Origin: Gordonia effusa NBRC 100432
GTDB lineage: Bacteria > Actinomycetota > Actinomycetes > Mycobacteriales > Mycobacteriaceae
NCBI RefSeq assembly: GCF_000241305.1
Contig: NZ_BAEH01000054.1
Location: forward strand, 1-64,000
Direction: 5' to 3'
Length of the DNA: 64,000 nt
A program made the position numbers and the translations under genes. Below are positions 18,859 to 27,793 of this stretch, piece after piece. The notes beneath the pieces are model-generated. The model saw only the letters and a list, made by a program, of their open reading frames with translations, did not search any database and was not told the origin of the DNA. How positions within the stretch are numbered: position 1 is the first letter of the stretch; each line of letters begins with the position of its first letter.

Positions 18859-18931
18859 GGGGGCTTAGCTCAGTTGGTAGAGCATCGCCTTTGCAAGGCG
18901 AGGGTCAGGGTTTCGAATCCCCTAGCCTCCA
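18859..18931 (+). tRNA. tRNA-Ala (anticodon TGC)
   Basis: A 73-nt cloverleaf. The acceptor arms GGGGGCT and AGCCTCC pair (one G-T), followed by discriminator A. D arm GCTC...GAGC; anticodon stem TCGCC/GGCGA around loop TTTGCAA, so anticodon TGC reads Ala codons GCN. T loop TTCGAAT is canonical. The last T-stem pair is a T-C mismatch (AGGGT against CCCCT), a small oddity. CCA is not encoded. The gene sits at the left boundary of the accessory region, a common integration spot. Confidence 0.93.
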
Positions 18932-19358
18932 CGGGTGTGTTTGTCTCGGTGTTCGCTTCGGCGACCTGAGTGGCACTATTCGAACCCCGGGCATCATCGA
19001 TGTCCGGGGTTTCGCGCATCCGGGTTCCCTGCCTGGGGTAGTCGAGAGTCTCGACACTTTGAGATCCCGAGCGAGCGGTGCGGAGGTGGCCGCTCTGAGC
19101 GAGTTGCGGAGACCGACTTCTGGAGATTCGGTAGGGTTTGCTGGGCGAAGCGAGGTGCCGGGCGCGGTAACGCCGGTGGTGGATCACGAGGGCGAGATGC
19201 GACTCAACTAGGCGTACTGGCTAGGGGCCACGTCGGCACGCTCGTTGGTCTTCCCTTTCACGCGCACGGTGAACCCAAGCCTCGCCATACGGGTGCCACG
19301 CTCTTGGCGGAGCAGGCGCCGTTCCATACACCAGCCAACTGAAGGGTGTCACCGGGCA
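18932..19358. other. intergenic stretch between tRNA-Ala and the OLD-like gene
   Basis: The 427 bases hold the tRNA hairpin terminator (18981-19014) and the promoter region of the next gene. Frames here are low-quality Arg/Ser/Gly-rich readings on both strands with no ribosome binding sites. I see no gene and no second copy of the tRNA 3' end. Confidence 0.55.
18981..19014 (+). terminator. tRNA-Ala terminator hairpin
   Basis: CGAACCCCGGGCAT and ATGTCCGGGGTTTCG pair with a single mismatch and a small bulge, 49 bases after the tRNA. The right arm contains TTTCG, so the T-run is short. Probable rho-independent terminator. Confidence 0.6.
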
Positions 19359-20405
19359 ATGAGGGTTCGTCGGCTTTGGATCGAGAACTTCAGAGGGATA
19401 CGGCAGCTGGACTGGGTGATTCCAATTGAGCAGCGGCTCATTGCGCTTGTCGGCCCTGGCGACAGCGGTAAGTCGACCATCCTCGACGCCATCCACTATC
19501 TGCTCGGTGACCGCTGGAGCATTCCGTTCGCGGACACAGACTTCTTCGGGGCGAACGTCGACGATCCGATTGTGATCAAGGCACTGCTCATCAACATTCC
19601 GGCGTCGTTGCGGAAAGACAACGTCTTCGGCCTTTGGCTGAGCGGCGTCGACGCGGAGGGCGAGCCACAACAGGATCCCGAGGACGAGTTCGAGCCCGCG
19701 TTGATCGTCCAGCTCACGGTGGATGCCGGCCTGGAGCCACGCTGGTCAGTCGTCCGCTTAGACAGCTCTGAGCAGTTCCTCACCTCGTCCCAACGACGTT
19801 CCTTCTCGACGTTCAAGGTGGACGACAGGACCGACGCTCAGCTCCGTTGGAGCCGTAACTCGCCGCTCGGCCGAATGTCGTCCGAAGATCGCGGCGAGCG
19901 AGATGCACTTGCGGCGGCGTCACGCGCCGCGCGAGAGGCGCTGGTCGATCACGAAAACTCGTCGCTCGCCGACCTCGCTGCTAGAGTCCAAGATCGCGCC
20001 AATCAGATCGGTGGCGGAAGTTTCGCCGGCATCAGACCGGGACTCGACACCTCGCGTTCAGCCATGGGCGCGGCGCTGGCCCTCTACGAGGACGTCATCC
20101 CGCTCACTAGCTTCGGGCTAGGTAGCCGTCGCCTGACAAGCCTTGCAGTCCAGCAACTCGCGGCCGGGAATCGCTCCTTGGCGGTGGTCGACGAGCTCGA
20201 GTCCGGGCTGGAGCCGCATCGTGCCGTGCGCCTGCTGAACTATTTGCTGTCTGACGACGGCTACTCGCAAGTGCTCGTTACCACTCACTCGCCGGTCATC
20301 GTCGAGCAGGCCCAAATCGAGAATCTGGCGACCGTACGGAGCGCCCGCGGTGCTCGGGGGAGTTGCCAACGTAGCTGTCGATCCGGGATAGGAAGAGGCT
20401 GTTGA
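19359..20405 (+). CDS. OLD-family-like ATPase, C-terminally truncated
   Basis: An ABC-type ATPase of the overcoming-lysogenization-defect (OLD) nuclease class. It begins MRVRRLWIENFRGIRQLDWV and has a degenerate Walker A GPGDSGKSTIL (near residue 33), then late ABC elements GSRRLTSLAVQQLA, LAVVDELESGLEPHRA (Walker B) and LVTTHSPVIVEQAQ (His switch). About 330 residues match; OLD proteins normally continue into a Toprim nuclease domain of 200 residues or more, which is missing. The reading frame runs into unrelated Arg/Ser/Cys-rich sequence after IENLATVRSA (about 20345), exactly where the antisense tnsB remnant begins. Probably an inactive remnant of a defence-type nuclease. Confidence 0.8.
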   Translation: MRVRRLWIENFRGIRQLDWVIPIEQRLIALVGPGDSGKSTILDAIHYLLGDRWSIPFADTDFFGANVDDPIVIKALLINIPASLRKDNVFGLWLSGVDAEGEPQQDPEDEFEPALIVQLTVDAGLEPRWSVVRLDSSEQFLTSSQRRSFSTFKVDDRTDAQLRWSRNSPLGRMSSEDRGERDALAAASRAAREALVDHENSSLADLAARVQDRANQIGGGSFAGIRPGLDTSRSAMGAALALYEDVIPLTSFGLGSRRLTSLAVQQLAAGNRSLAVVDELESGLEPHRAVRLLNYLLSDDGYSQVLVTTHSPVIVEQAQIENLATVRSARGARGSCQRSCRSGIGRGC

Positions 20406-21431: not shown

Positions 21432-22212
21432 GGTTTCTCGTTCCGAATCGTGTGAAGCACCGATGTGGGGGAGACAGGCACAGTGAGGTCGGCATCGAGA
21501 TGCCTGTGCCAGAGCAGGTGGCGCACGTGAGCGGCTGCGCGGTAGGGATGTTGGCGGTCGGCCATGATTGTTCCGTCGCCGAACGGGACGCCGCTCGCGA
21601 AGACTTCGCGGATCCGCCTGAACTCTTTGGGTGACGGGTGATAGTGATCGTGTCTAGCTGGCCGGATGAAATGAAGATTCTGGAGGGTCGTCGGATGGGG
21701 TTCGTTCAGTACCTGGTGGCTTCCAGCCGATCGATGCACACAGTTCAGCAGTCTTGCGGAACTGGTCTGTGGCTTTCGCGGTCATTCGTCCTGACGGCTT
21801 GACGTCGTACACAAGCTGATCGCCGGATCTGAGCAGCGCGAAGAAGTCGGGTACGTGGTCCGTTCCGTCGGCGAAAACAAGCTTCATCGGCTGGGACGCA
21901 ATCTGTTGGGTATCTCCTTCGAACTCAAGGACAAGAAGGGCGTCTGCCTCCAGCGCAGATTCACACCAAACGTGCGACCGTTGCGGGATCACGAATTGCC
22001 GCGAGTGCCGGTTGCGCCGATTCTGGTACTGGACGCCGGATCGGAAAGCGCGCGCAGTTTCGAGGTGTTTGTGGAGCAGGCCAGGTGAGGGCGATCTCGG
22101 AGCGAAATTGGCCGTCAAGATCACGCCACGAGACCCTCGGAGTGGTTGTCCCCGTGAGCGGTTCGCTCGTGGGCTTTAGCCCTGTCGGTACTGTCATTGG
22201 TCGCCGTTTCAT
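21413..22212 (-). pseudogene. tnsA: TnsA-like transposase endonuclease, frameshifted
   Basis: A TnsA-like restriction-fold endonuclease of heteromeric Tn7-like transposases. Three consecutive frames are needed to read it. The start (MKRRPMTVPTGLKP, then VSWRDLDGQFRSE) is in one frame to about 22065. The nuclease core follows in a second (HVWCESALEADALLVLEFEG, HVPDFFALL, VYDVKPSGR with candidate Glu, Asp and Lys) to about 21725. The C-terminal winged domain is in a third (QVLNEPHPTTLQ...). Two frameshifts therefore separate the parts. It precedes and overlaps tnsB. No tnsC, tnsD or tniQ gene remains nearby. Confidence 0.72.
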
Positions 22213-23950: not shown

Positions 23951-23983
23951 ACGTACATTACGTCACTGTGACGTAATGTACGT
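23951..23983. repeat. perfect 33-bp palindrome
   Basis: Two 16-bp arms (ACGTACATTACGTCAC and its exact complement) flank a single T. It lies 95 bases beyond the stop codon of the HEPN-like gene. A related 19-bp core (ACGTCAC-a-GTGACGT plus AAT) occurs at 25900-25916, on the far side of the two-gene operon. It could be a terminator, an operator or a recombination site. Confidence 0.75.
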
Positions 23984-24078: not shown

Positions 24079-24996
24079 TCACTCGTCCATGTATTCCGGA
24101 CCGTCGTAGTTGGATTCGACCTGGTATCTCTCGTCCAATGACTCGTGCTCTTGCTCGGTCACCTGCTGGGGAACCTGTGCTGCGACAAGTTCAGGTGCGC
24201 CCAGAAGCTCAAGTCCGCAAACCGGGCATTTGAGTTCGTCGAGGAGATAGATGTCGTCGCGGATCACTGTATCGCCGTCCAGATGCTCACGGGCACTTCG
24301 GACATAGGTCTTCGGCGCATAGACTGTATGCTCGCAGACCGGGCACTTCACGGCTGCAGTTGTACGCTGCCGCGCAAGCAACTCCAACCCAGTTGGCTCG
24401 GCCGCGGCGACGCGTGCAGCGATTTCGTCCTGGCTCAGTTTCTCCAGGAAGCTTAGGCACGCTTGGATCTTCAATTCGACTCCGCGAGCAACCTTCTTGT
24501 CGGCCTCATCAAGAAGGATTTCTCCGAGCTTCACAACGGCGTCATCGAGGACATCTTGCGGATCAATCGCCAAGTGTTGACAGATGATCTTGGCGACCCG
24601 CACAAGCTTAGGCAGCCAAAGGTCGTTCGGTACCTCACTCACAGCGGCGTTGGACGCATGCAGTTCCGCGTTTCTCAGGTTCATAAGAAACAAAGAATCG
24701 CTAACTGCGTCGCCGGCAAACTCTGGGACAATTCGCGCTAAGCGGTCGATCACTACTCCGCTCGCAACGCTTTTTGGGTCCTTGGGGGTCGTGACGCCGT
24801 TTGCGGCGAGCAAACTGTCGCTGTCGTTTGTCGCAGCCAGGAGACTTGGATGCAGATTTGCCAAAGGCGTCCGTAACAGGAACTCGAATCCAAGAAGGTG
24901 CCAGATCGCGAACTCGTCGTCATCGGAGTGCTCGTGTTCCGCCCCACGTGTGAAGTAGAGCCGGGCCTTGCCGATGAATCCGTCGTAATCCCACAC
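24079..24996 (-). CDS. HEPN-like protein with zinc ribbon
   Basis: A 305-residue cytosolic protein. The N-terminal half is helical and contains LRNAELHAS at residues 107-115, which fits the RNxxxH (Rx4-6H) motif of HEPN ribonucleases. The C-terminal third has two CPVC knuckles (Cys 218/221 and 257/260) forming one zinc ribbon, then an acidic tail. HEPN domains supply the RNase of many toxin and anti-phage systems, so an RNA-cleaving effector is a reasonable inference but not shown. It is the second gene of an operon, 10 bases after a 2OG-Fe(II) oxygenase gene, inside the accessory region. I do not know this domain combination as a named system. Confidence 0.7.
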   Translation of the reverse strand: MWDYDGFIGKARLYFTRGAEHEHSDDDEFAIWHLLGFEFLLRTPLANLHPSLLAATNDSDSLLAANGVTTPKDPKSVASGVVIDRLARIVPEFAGDAVSDSLFLMNLRNAELHASNAAVSEVPNDLWLPKLVRVAKIICQHLAIDPQDVLDDAVVKLGEILLDEADKKVARGVELKIQACLSFLEKLSQDEIAARVAAAEPTGLELLARQRTTAAVKCPVCEHTVYAPKTYVRSAREHLDGDTVIRDDIYLLDELKCPVCGLELLGAPELVAAQVPQQVTEQEHESLDERYQVESNYDGPEYMDE

Positions 24997-25006
24997 CTAA
25001 AGATCC

Positions 25007-25705
25007 TTACTTAGTAATGAAAGTTCGAAGAAGAGCACGCCCAGTAGCAGCGGGTACCGATGGCCGCCGGTGCATTACACGATGATTATCCAGGATGAGG
25101 ATCCGGCCCGGTTGCCAGGCAACCTCATCAGTCGGCTGGGCACTCTCCACAGCTGCGCGCGCGTCGTCCGGGCCAATGACTATTGCGCGCGGATCCCAAC
25201 GCAGTCGCCATTCTTTTGGGCCCGAGTTGACGAACGCTGGGAGGTAAGCTTTTCGCCCAGACTCTTGGCGGATAAGCAGAGTCAGGCGGCGCAGCGCCCG
25301 CCTTAGATCACCAGTAGGAATACAAATCTGAGTCGATGTCGGTTGATTTGCCTCAATGCACCTTAAGACCATCCACTGTGGTGGGTTCAGCGCGATTGCG
25401 CCATCAGTGTGCCACGGAAACTCACCTAGTCCGACAGTGGCAGAGTGCGTGCCTTTTCGGGCATCATCGACCACCGTAGGACGAAGTATTTGGCCACGCA
25501 CCTCTGTAGTGCCCAGTCTGGCTGCCAACGTGCTGAAAACATGTTCTTCATCAGTCCACGTCCAACCCCTGAGGCTTAGGAGCGCTAGGTGCCTCGCTTC
25601 ATTCACAGCATTAATGCTCGCACATGCGAACAGCAGCTTGGGCGAACTGCGTGATGTCTGTGGCACCTCTCGCCGCGATTGCAGCGTGGCGAGCCGTACC
25701 GTCAT
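25007..25705 (-). CDS. 2OG-Fe(II) oxygenase, TauD/TfdA-like
   Basis: A 232-residue non-haem iron oxygenase. The iron facial triad is visible as H99-T-D101 (FPWHTDGAIAL) and H212 (DNHRVMHRRPSV). The 2-oxoglutarate-binding Arg lies in GRALLRTFI (about R227). It is shorter than TauD itself (about 280), closer to clavaminate-synthase-like members acting on amino acids, peptides or bases. The product starts MTVRLATLQSRREV, with no signal peptide. It leads the operon with the HEPN-like gene (10-base gap), so hydroxylation of the same target, partner or a nucleotide signal is possible. The substrate is unknown. Confidence 0.82.
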   Translation of the reverse strand: MTVRLATLQSRREVPQTSRSSPKLLFACASINAVNEARHLALLSLRGWTWTDEEHVFSTLAARLGTTEVRGQILRPTVVDDARKGTHSATVGLGEFPWHTDGAIALNPPQWMVLRCIEANQPTSTQICIPTGDLRRALRRLTLLIRQESGRKAYLPAFVNSGPKEWRLRWDPRAIVIGPDDARAAVESAQPTDEVAWQPGRILILDNHRVMHRRPSVPAATGRALLRTFITK

Positions 25706-26299
25706 GACCTTCCACTTTTGTGCCAGGCGCGGCTATCCCAGCCGCGGCACCGTGACTCGATCCGACACTCTCAGGGTCAGTTCACGCACGTCCTACGACG
25801 CCGTCTTCCCTGCCGCTGAAGAGCTTTCCTTGACAGCGGCGCGGGTTTCGGCAAGGTCCTCTGGCGTCCGTCCCCGCGCTCCGAGCCGCGGGAGTGGTAA
25901 CGTCACAGTGACGTAATTAGGGCTGAATGGGATGTTTCGTGGAAATGATCTCGCTGATATTCCAGGGCGTGACGAAGCTTTTGCTGGCTGGTTCGGATGA
26001 ATTGGGCGGCACGACCTGACCCAGTGTGTCAATATAGTAATTAGAAGACCCTTCGCCAAAGGCTGGCTAGTTCTGCGATCTGCTCTCGGTCAGTAGCGAC
26101 AATGTATTGATAACTCTGTGCGTTGCCGCCGTTTGGTGCCCCAGGTCGCGGCGCGAATCAATTTAGTAAGGAGTTGCGGAGAAACCGGGCCGGGTTTGAG
26201 ACGACGCATCGCGCGCTTTGTCGGCATTGTCTCGAATAATGCGGGGTCTACGGACCGCGGTTGTGCAGCTATATTCGTCGCATAGTTTTGGCTCGCCGA
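25706..26299. other. intergenic stretch upstream of the oxygenase operon
   Basis: 594 bases with no supported gene. It contains the second palindrome (25898-25916) about 195 bases upstream of the oxygenase start codon, so the operon promoter probably lies here. The only long minus-strand frame (25793-26059) is Ser/Arg-rich, runs across the palindrome and has no ribosome binding site. Confidence 0.55.
25898..25916. repeat. palindrome related to the one at 23951
   Basis: ACGTCAC-a-GTGACGT (25900-25914) is a perfect 7-bp-arm palindrome. Together with the following AAT it is identical to the core of the 23951-23983 palindrome except for the central base. The two copies enclose exactly the oxygenase/HEPN-like operon (about 1.9 kb). 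Confidence 0.7.
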
Positions 26300-27793
26300 T
26301 TAACCCCGCAATCCCTGCGGCATTGCCACGCGAGACGTGAACGTGCCATGGAAGCCTACCGGTACGTGGTGTTTTAGATATAGCGTGCAGATTGGACCGA
26401 CCTCGACGTCGCGTGCGTCAAAGATCGATAATTGTGAGCGATGAGTCAACAGGTTTTGACTCAACGTGAGCAGCCAACCGTCATCTTCGGCCCCTATTTT
26501 CGACCGTGGCACGAATAGCGGCTCACCGAAAGCCCAATCGTCGCGGTGCCAGAATGTTGCTGTCTCCTTGGCGTGGTCGAATTTGCCGATCCCGTCGTAA
26601 TGCGAGACGTCTTTGACTCGGCTTGCGGTCGAGTAGGTCACTGTGTGGCGGAGATTTGACCGCCGCCAATCAAATTGCGGAAATTCAATGGCGTTGTCGG
26701 GAGTGAGGACTTCTTCGGTCACCCGTCCGCTCGGGCTGACCCGCAACCGTACTAGATGGCTAGTTGGCCAGCGCATGATGTTCGCGAGTGGACCGCCTTG
26801 CGTCGGACCAGTTGTTGTGAGTCTAATACTGGAGAAAGAATCGACATCGGTATAGCGGGGGAACTCAAAAACCGTGTCGGATCCATCTTCGTACGCATTA
26901 GTCATGTGGATATGTAGTTGCGCGTCATAATCGATTATTCTCGGCCTCGAGCCATCACGAGGTACGAGGACGATCTTGCTGTATGTGTCTTCGAACTGAT
27001 ACTTCAAAGCTTTGGCGAGCGATCCGGTTCGCGCTAGTTTGATAGGATTGGGGATCCTGAATGGGTCTAGCAAGAAGACTAGGTACTTTTTCGTCAAGGC
27101 GAAGTCGTGATTCCACCCCATGTCCCATAGCGTTACTGAATTGATCTGTTCGACCTTGCCGGTGGGTGTTTTCCGATAGCAGCGAAGACGTGGCGTAGGC
27201 AGGAAATCTAGGCCGAAGTTGAACATCTCCCCTGTCTCGGCATCCCACTTCGGATGGGCGGAGAACGCCCCCAGATATCCGAGCGCTCCGTCGAAATCCT
27301 CGGCGCCGAGTGTCTCTAGGGTATCCGGGTCCATTCGGTGCGGGTTGCCGAATTCCCAACAGGCCAGCATTTCTCCGGCGAGCGGGATGATGTTGGTGTT
27401 AGCTACATTTCGCAATCGCGTAAGCGTTTGAAGCTTCCGCCCTTTTACTGGATTCTCGGGCCCATGCTCGGGTAATCTTCCGTTGCTCAAGCCCTTTCTG
27501 AACTGATCGGTCCGGACGTATCTATTCGTATATCGAATATTCTGGGTGCCGTCGAAGATGAAGCGTGACACCATTCCATCGCCCTCGAAAATAGTGTGCA
27601 ACCGCGATTCGCCCATCTCGAACTTTCCTGGGCCGATCCTAAACAGGGTGCCCAGCAAACCTTCGGGTACAGCGCCATCCATTTCGTCAACGATGTAGTC
27701 ATACTCTCGCTCTAGTGAAACGTACTGTCGCAACGCTGCTTGTGAACTCAGCGCGGCGGTACGCGGGGTCGACGCTAGATTGCCGATGGTCAT
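26300..27793 (-). CDS. carotenoid oxygenase family protein
   Basis: A 497-residue seven-bladed beta-propeller enzyme of the RPE65/carotenoid cleavage oxygenase family. The non-haem iron is held by four His; candidates are AHPKWD (SAHPKW), the WNHDFALTKKYLV segment, LHIHMTNAYE and the C-terminal VGFHGTFTSRV. The FEGDGMVSRFIFDG segment near residue 70 is also family-typical. Substrates range from carotenoids to stilbenes and lignin-derived alkenes and cannot be chosen here. It diverges from a TetR gene across a 60-bp region with nested inverted repeats, so it is probably the repressed target. Full length. Confidence 0.93.
   Translation of the reverse strand: MTIGNLASTPRTAALSSQAALRQYVSLEREYDYIVDEMDGAVPEGLLGTLFRIGPGKFEMGESRLHTIFEGDGMVSRFIFDGTQNIRYTNRYVRTDQFRKGLSNGRLPEHGPENPVKGRKLQTLTRLRNVANTNIIPLAGEMLACWEFGNPHRMDPDTLETLGAEDFDGALGYLGAFSAHPKWDAETGEMFNFGLDFLPTPRLRCYRKTPTGKVEQINSVTLWDMGWNHDFALTKKYLVFLLDPFRIPNPIKLARTGSLAKALKYQFEDTYSKIVLVPRDGSRPRIIDYDAQLHIHMTNAYEDGSDTVFEFPRYTDVDSFSSIRLTTTGPTQGGPLANIMRWPTSHLVRLRVSPSGRVTEEVLTPDNAIEFPQFDWRRSNLRHTVTYSTASRVKDVSHYDGIGKFDHAKETATFWHRDDWAFGEPLFVPRSKIGAEDDGWLLTLSQNLLTHRSQLSIFDARDVEVGPICTLYLKHHVPVGFHGTFTSRVAMPQGLRG

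Follow-up and report, generated by a model that had tools for sequence, protein, structure and literature searches.

A small TauD-type 2-oxoglutarate (2OG)-Fe(II) oxygenase gene and a downstream gene for a protein with a predicted HEPN fold and a zinc ribbon form a genuine, mobile two-gene module. We describe it from Gordonia effusa NBRC 100432, where it lies within the first 64,000 nucleotides of contig NZ_BAEH01000054.1 (assembly GCF_000241305.1), the stretch of DNA analyzed here and referred to below as the window. The pair is probably a toxin-control or anti-phage module. We assign a probability of about one-half to the reading in which the mobile module consists of a HEPN RNase effector controlled by its regular oxygenase partner, most likely via a conserved C-terminal tail. 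The pairing, its conservation, the co-variation of the two proteins, their spread, both active-site motifs and the tail are all read directly from sequence.

The locus in Gordonia effusa

A sequence-only reading of this DNA had described an oxygenase gene and a gene for a HEPN-like protein lying close together between Tn7-like remnants and a chromosomal gene. Both open reading frames (ORFs) are present at that place, on the minus strand with 10 nt between them, and both sets of motifs picked out in that reading were recovered, namely, H99-T-D101 and H212 in the oxygenase and R108-N-A-E-L-H113 and CPVC...CPVC in the second protein. The features of the locus are as follows.

25007..25705, minus strand: TauD/TfdA-type 2OG-Fe(II) oxygenase gene, first of the pair (232 aa; Pfam PF02668, E = 1.2e-13)
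25403..25411, minus strand: H99-T-D101, two of the three iron ligands (alignment A4)
25070..25072, minus strand: H212, third iron ligand (invariant in 24/24), followed by conserved R214, R223 and R227
24079..24996, minus strand: HEPN and zinc-ribbon gene, second of the pair (305 aa, GTG start)
24553..24996, minus strand: HEPN helical domain, residues 1-148 (AlphaFold2 model)
24658..24675, minus strand: R108-NAEL-H113, the R-x4-H motif of HEPN proteins (H113 in 26/26, R108 in 25/26)
24217..24345, minus strand: zinc ribbon C218-P-V-C221 ... C257-P-V-C260 (four Cys in 26/26)
24082..24093, minus strand: tail Y302-M-D-E305, the counterpart of the YGND that ends most relatives and the place where the oxygenase is proposed to act or dock
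23951..23983, no strand assigned: 33-bp palindrome ACGTACATTACGTCAC-T-GTGACGTAATGTACGT, downstream of the pair
25900..25914, no strand assigned: second copy of the palindrome core, ACGTCACNGTGACGT, upstream of the pair

The flanks agree with the earlier description as well. Positions 21654-22124 match NCBIfam TnsA_like_Actin (5.6e-23), which fits a Tn7-like remnant; the score of 81.5 bits is under the cut-off of 110, as expected of a fragment. The chromosomal neighbor is a gene for an RPE65-type carotenoid oxygenase at 26300-27793. Beside the TnsA-like remnants we also observed an ORF for a GajA-like (Gabija) ATPase (19245-20405, plus strand, 386 aa), which covers only the first 339 of the 570 positions of its PADLOC profile (E = 1.7e-114) and is apparently a truncated copy. 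A tRNA-Ala (TGC) gene lies at 18859-18932, a short way ahead of the region containing the GajA fragment, the TnsA remnants and the pair.

Comparison of the window with Williamsia sterculiae, using our own script, indicated purifying selection on both genes, with dN/dS values of 0.12 for the HEPN gene and 0.25 for the oxygenase gene. Scans of the locus for promoters and terminators gave nothing clearly above shuffled sequences, and no clean empty site was seen in the SDR/HxlR loci of three genus mates. The 15-base palindrome core begins at 23960 and 25900, on either side of the pair, and these two places are its only exact matches in the 4.7-Mb assembly. It is absent from the Williamsia locus, in which the best matches have three mismatches. 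The flanking palindromes could be operators or element ends.

Conservation and distribution of the pair

The sequence-only reading had proposed looking for conserved pairing in other genomes, and such a search uncovered 26 loci in which both frames are intact and the oxygenase gene always comes first (13 genome loci, 12 plasmid loci and 1 viral contig). Removal of near-copies left 22 non-redundant pairs, and beyond the 26 there are three further pairs on viral contigs (L130-L132). The hosts are Actinomycetota and Alpha-, Gamma- and Betaproteobacteria, the last being represented by a single record (L046) labeled UNVERIFIED_ORG. Throughout the 26 pairs the genes overlap or are separated by at most about 10 nt, a spacing that depends on start codons partly chosen by us; some alignment rows start at the start of the match rather than at a checked start codon.

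The pair is rare. Profile A1 matched in 18 of 394 class-level genomes, 7 of which carry an intact pair, the other matches being unpaired, broken or weak. The HEPN query matched in 9 of 298 order-level genomes, with the pair intact in five, cut by the end of the contig in one (L003) and the oxygenase absent in three. HEPN matches were present in 32 of 72,556 plasmid records, and we examined 22 plasmid regions. In 11 of the first 13, the gene immediately upstream is annotated as TauD/TfdA, and in the others the oxygenase is unannotated with its start out of frame (L045) or is absent (L047). Three of the next nine have an oxygenase, namely, L050, in which it is unannotated, and L051 and L052, in which the HEPN gene is broken. 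Two queries gave no HEPN match in phage GenBank records, and a first scan of IMG/VR with A1 was also without a match; later scans of IMG/VR gave L049 (found again as L133) and L130-L132.

Searches in the reverse direction, with the oxygenase as the query, led back to the HEPN gene. In 388 class-level genomes, with at most seven candidates scored per genome, all seven strong matches (E <= 1.5e-48) adjoin a HEPN gene. A partial copy from the reverse search of the same genomes (G482:C101, 8e-27) has no HEPN gene in the flank fetched, and 22 weaker matches (3e-15 or weaker) have none in their flanks, which extended to at most 1.5 kb. All 33 plasmid records that matched the oxygenase, among the 72,556 searched, have a HEPN match beside it, as judged from the accessions and positions given by the HEPN searches; 19 of these records are near-copies of a single Agrobacterium tumefaciens plasmid, and one, JX469828, has a broken HEPN frame. 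Likewise, HEPN is present on all three viral contigs that the oxygenase query retrieved (3/3). Furthermore, the distance matrices of the HEPN proteins and the oxygenases are correlated (r = 0.90), and none of 2,000 label permutations gave a value as high. We found no support for a chance neighborhood of unrelated genes and rejected it as having a negligible probability, in view of the 26 loci with the same gene order and the pairing in the reverse searches.

Damage has affected both genes. The HEPN gene is broken in L023, L024, L051 and L052, the oxygenase is damaged or was not found in L045, L051, L024 and G482:C101, and comparison of these loci showed neither gene to have clearly been lost first. 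Two related Bradyrhizobium plasmids differ in this respect: in L044 (5950-6909) the motif Arg of the HEPN protein is Gln and the oxygenase is intact, and in L045 (5411-6909) the HEPN protein is intact and the start of the oxygenase is out of frame.

The oxygenase

The first protein belongs to the TauD family, scoring 52.1 bits with PF02668, for which the cut-off is 27. Across alignment A4, which contains 24 oxygenases including that of the window, H99, H212, R214, R223 and R227 are invariant (24/24), and Asp occupies position 101 in 22 rows, with Glu in L040 and L041; the ligands of a two-His-one-carboxylate iron site (H99, D/E101 and H212) are thereby conserved. R223 and R227 are candidates for the 2OG-binding Arg of the family. 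Other PF02668 matches in the same Gordonia genome lie on contigs C24, C121, C115 and C86. We considered and rejected the idea that the oxygenase is an ordinary metabolic TauD, as the subfamily found in pairs stands cleanly apart among 30 matches from the class-level genomes.

A family profile built from the 24 relatives has clavaminate synthase 1 as its nearest match (1.1e-15), and the next matches include L-lysine 3-hydroxylase (1.9e-10), asparagine oxygenase (5.4e-10) and arginine beta-hydroxylase (1.3e-9). The likeness to the clavaminate synthase/asparagine oxygenase/arginine beta-hydroxylase group thus takes the form of profile matches of 1.1e-15 to about 1e-9. The paired oxygenases are shorter than members of this group (195-238 aa, with starts as called) and, unlike them, regularly adjoin a HEPN gene. 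Neither the oxygenase nor the HEPN protein of the window matched any family of PADLOC-DB 2.0.0 at E <= 1.

The HEPN protein and its unpaired relatives

Structure prediction, suggested earlier as a check of the fold, supports a HEPN domain in the second protein. In an AlphaFold2 model (pLDDT 82.3, pTM 0.62), residues 1-148 form a compact helical bundle that falls among HEPN domains; Foldseek alone gave no matches with this model at E <= 0.001. The conserved residues were read from alignment A3, which comprises 26 HEPN rows, including the window, and differs from the set of 26 intact pairs in having L003 and L045 and in being without L049 and L050. All rows of A3 share N109, H113 and the four Cys; R108 is present in 25 of the 26, being Gln in L044.

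Matches in sequence databases were few. In Pfam and NCBIfam, every match of the HEPN protein fell below the cut-off, and most were to zinc ribbons; the protein had no PADLOC or PHROG family and no PDB match by sequence, the best E value of the family profile against the PDB being 0.067. The 26 HEPN rows matched five Pfam families at E <= 0.01, with no known HEPN model among them, although distant kinship is possible, and against PADLOC they matched DUF3644 alone, in two rows (best 0.0067). AbiV, AbiF and other HEPN abortive-infection proteins thus have no sequence match here in Pfam or PADLOC.

Its sequence suggests that the HEPN partner may be an RNase. In the Legionella HEPN toxin, according to PMC11586414, the motif Arg and His lie outside the active site, which is instead a metal site with Q44 and E47, so the R-x4-H motif alone is no proof of an RNase.

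We also observed an oxygenase-free family of HEPN and zinc-ribbon proteins in Actinomycetota (L007, L009, L010, L025-L029, L031 and L047, with further members L053-L058, L138 and L139). These are homologous to the paired proteins by profile and share with them the RN-x3-H motif (15/16) and, in the three aligned (L007, L009 and L010), the CxxC pairs. In contrast to the paired proteins, no oxygenase was found alongside them, their ends differ (Arg in 10 of 16, Gly-Arg in 7) and they form a separate clade.

A conserved tail in the paired HEPN proteins

Of the 26 HEPN proteins from intact pairs, 25 have the pattern Y-x-[ND]-[DE] within their last 10 residues, against none of 16 unpaired ones (Fisher test, 1e-10). 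The pattern is exactly terminal in 21, as YGND in 18, YMDE in the window and L001, and YQDE in L050; four plasmid rows have YEDD followed by NNER, and the exception, L042, ends in YHFSND. This count treats L044 as an intact pair despite the Gln in place of its motif Arg. It excludes L003 and L045, both of which have the tail YGND, because of the oxygenase (cut by the contig end, although its C-terminal end is readable, and with its start out of frame, respectively), as well as the four loci with a broken HEPN gene, L030, whose frame lacks the zinc ribbon, the weak partial matches L032 and L033, and duplicate retrievals of the same places. Among loci found later, the tail was present in three of three further pairs and in neither of two further unpaired proteins.

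The last four residues are 67% identical among the 22 non-redundant paired proteins and 85% identical among the 19 with Tyr at position -4; residues -27 to -8 are 11 to 12% identical. The corresponding values for the unpaired proteins are 22% for the last four residues versus 13% for the preceding stretch. A tip that is conserved while the disordered linker before it varies resembles a docking or modification site, and the occurrence of [ND]-[DE] on the partner of a relative of amino acid hydroxylases favors the tail as the contact or substrate. The absence of Asn from the window tail, YMDE, and the departure of L042 from the pattern both weigh against this reading. Because paired and unpaired proteins make up two clades in the tree (100/99), the association of tail and pairing is one evolutionary contrast rather than many, and the two could have arisen once and then simply been inherited.

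Genomic setting

The pair is found on conjugative plasmids, and in L049 it lies by peptidase and tail genes on a viral contig that is probably a prophage. Neighboring genes include Gabija-like AAA/OLD-TOPRIM and UvrD genes (L036), AbiV, AbiH and VapBC genes by annotation (L038), and genes for a DRT reverse transcriptase (L095), a type IIG restriction enzyme (L101) and a TIR protein (L001); plasmid neighbors carry the annotation names of their records, part of which were scanned. This setting is only suggestive of defense. A comparison of 116 ORFs around 13 actinobacterial pair loci (called by our own length and GC rule, without the called pair genes) with 133 control ORFs taken elsewhere in these genomes, from 13 regions, gave PADLOC matches at E <= 1e-15 in both sets, JetABC, GajB, mad3, MzaA and others being among the matches listed for the controls. 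As defense proteins also occur in the control regions, we claim no enrichment.

Two other neighbors recur. A gene annotated as a TrlF-family AAA ATPase is near the pair on three proteobacterial plasmids (L039:7106-9952, L040:2304-5279 and L041:2316-5279); in L040 and L041 it ends 9 nt before the oxygenase gene, perhaps as part of a larger operon. Just upstream of the pair, two viral contigs have a gene in common (L130:3050-3850 and L132:969-1736), the L132 copy of which has no PHROG or Pfam match.

Discussion

The sequence-only reading had suggested that the oxygenase might modify either the HEPN partner or an RNA or nucleotide signal. That interpretation holds in part: the HEPN/oxygenase pair is conserved, and we favor an oxygenase that acts on the HEPN protein. 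The second gene would encode a HEPN RNase effector with a zinc ribbon in its C-terminal half, followed by a floppy linker and the conserved tip, and the small oxygenase of the TauD/clavaminate synthase type encoded by the first gene would be the regular partner that controls it. In a healthy cell, the oxygenase would restrain the RNase through the tail, by docking on it or by hydroxylating its Asn/Asp. The RNase would be freed when the partner fails or when oxygen, iron or 2OG levels change, for example, during phage infection.

A more specific form of this proposal is an RNase switch gated by oxygen, iron and 2OG, in which a beta-hydroxylated Asn/Asp of the Y-x-[ND]-[DE] tail would hold the HEPN protein off until infection or the loss of oxygen or 2OG lifted the brake. 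Beta-hydroxylation is proposed since amino acid-hydroxylase relatives of the oxygenase carry it out, and we regard this version as tentative and somewhat unlikely. To our knowledge, the nearest solved oxygenases use free amino acids or other small molecules rather than proteins as substrates, which weighs against hydroxylation and control through the tail. A precedent for control by a partner enzyme comes from HEPN-MNT, in which, according to PMC11586414, the partner modifies the HEPN toxin, silencing it by AMPylating a Tyr two residues past the motif His. This type VII system (HepT-MntA) differs in that its partner is an MNT nucleotidyltransferase, whereas here it is a TauD-type 2OG oxygenase; the RX4HXY motif described in PMC11586414 has no counterpart here, there being no Tyr at His+2 in any of the 26 A3 rows; and the HEPN protein here has an additional zinc ribbon and conserved tail.

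The two proteins might instead be a two-part anti-phage effector, the oxygenase oxidizing a nucleotide or tRNA base and the HEPN protein cutting RNA with or without that mark and so killing infected cells. Such an arrangement would suit HEPN domains, most of which are regarded as RNases in PMC3710099, as well as the presence of the pair on viral contigs and on plasmids by annotated defense genes, and the zinc ribbon could bind RNA; we nevertheless consider it unlikely, as the nearest solved relatives of the oxygenase are amino acid hydroxylases and the conserved HEPN tail is left unexplained. The tail and the co-variation would be accounted for by contact alone if the oxygenase were a sensor subunit that binds the tail and frees or activates the RNase upon a change in iron, oxygen or 2OG, with no covalent mark. 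Against this, the iron ligands and the possible 2OG-holding Arg are conserved, which suggests turnover and makes a pure sensor decidedly unlikely. We give little credence to a metabolic operon that makes or modifies a small molecule with the HEPN-like protein as a non-nuclease scaffold: the oxygenase is close to clavaminate synthase and amino acid hydroxylases and metabolic genes occur in a few regions (L046 and L051), but R-x4-H is kept in 25 of 26 proteins and no biosynthetic gene common to the 22 plasmid regions was seen. The reading that we favor is one in which the oxygenase controls a HEPN RNase post-translationally, with the tail as the likely contact or substrate.

In the portions of text available, PMC3710099 contains none of the terms "oxygenase", "2OG" and "TauD", PMC10853773 mentions HEPN and no dioxygenase, and the matches in PMC6521030 are unrelated to the pair. 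More generally, in line with the sequence-only reading, whose author knew of no such system, no account of the pair was found in the literature searched, which covered few subscription papers and no preprints. The Y-x-[ND]-[DE] tail of the paired HEPN proteins is new here.

HEPN effectors are widespread in bacterial conflict, and for few of them is the mode of silencing known. Control of HIF in animals follows the same logic of oxygen and a 2OG oxygenase, and we know of no oxygenase-type control in toxin-antitoxin or phage defense modules. The conserved tail makes the proposed mechanism specific and directly testable. If it is correct, the 2OG oxygenase partner would tie control of an RNase to oxygen, iron and central metabolism, and, in the hydroxylation reading, the module would represent a type of toxin-antitoxin or defense system whose partner acts by protein hydroxylation.
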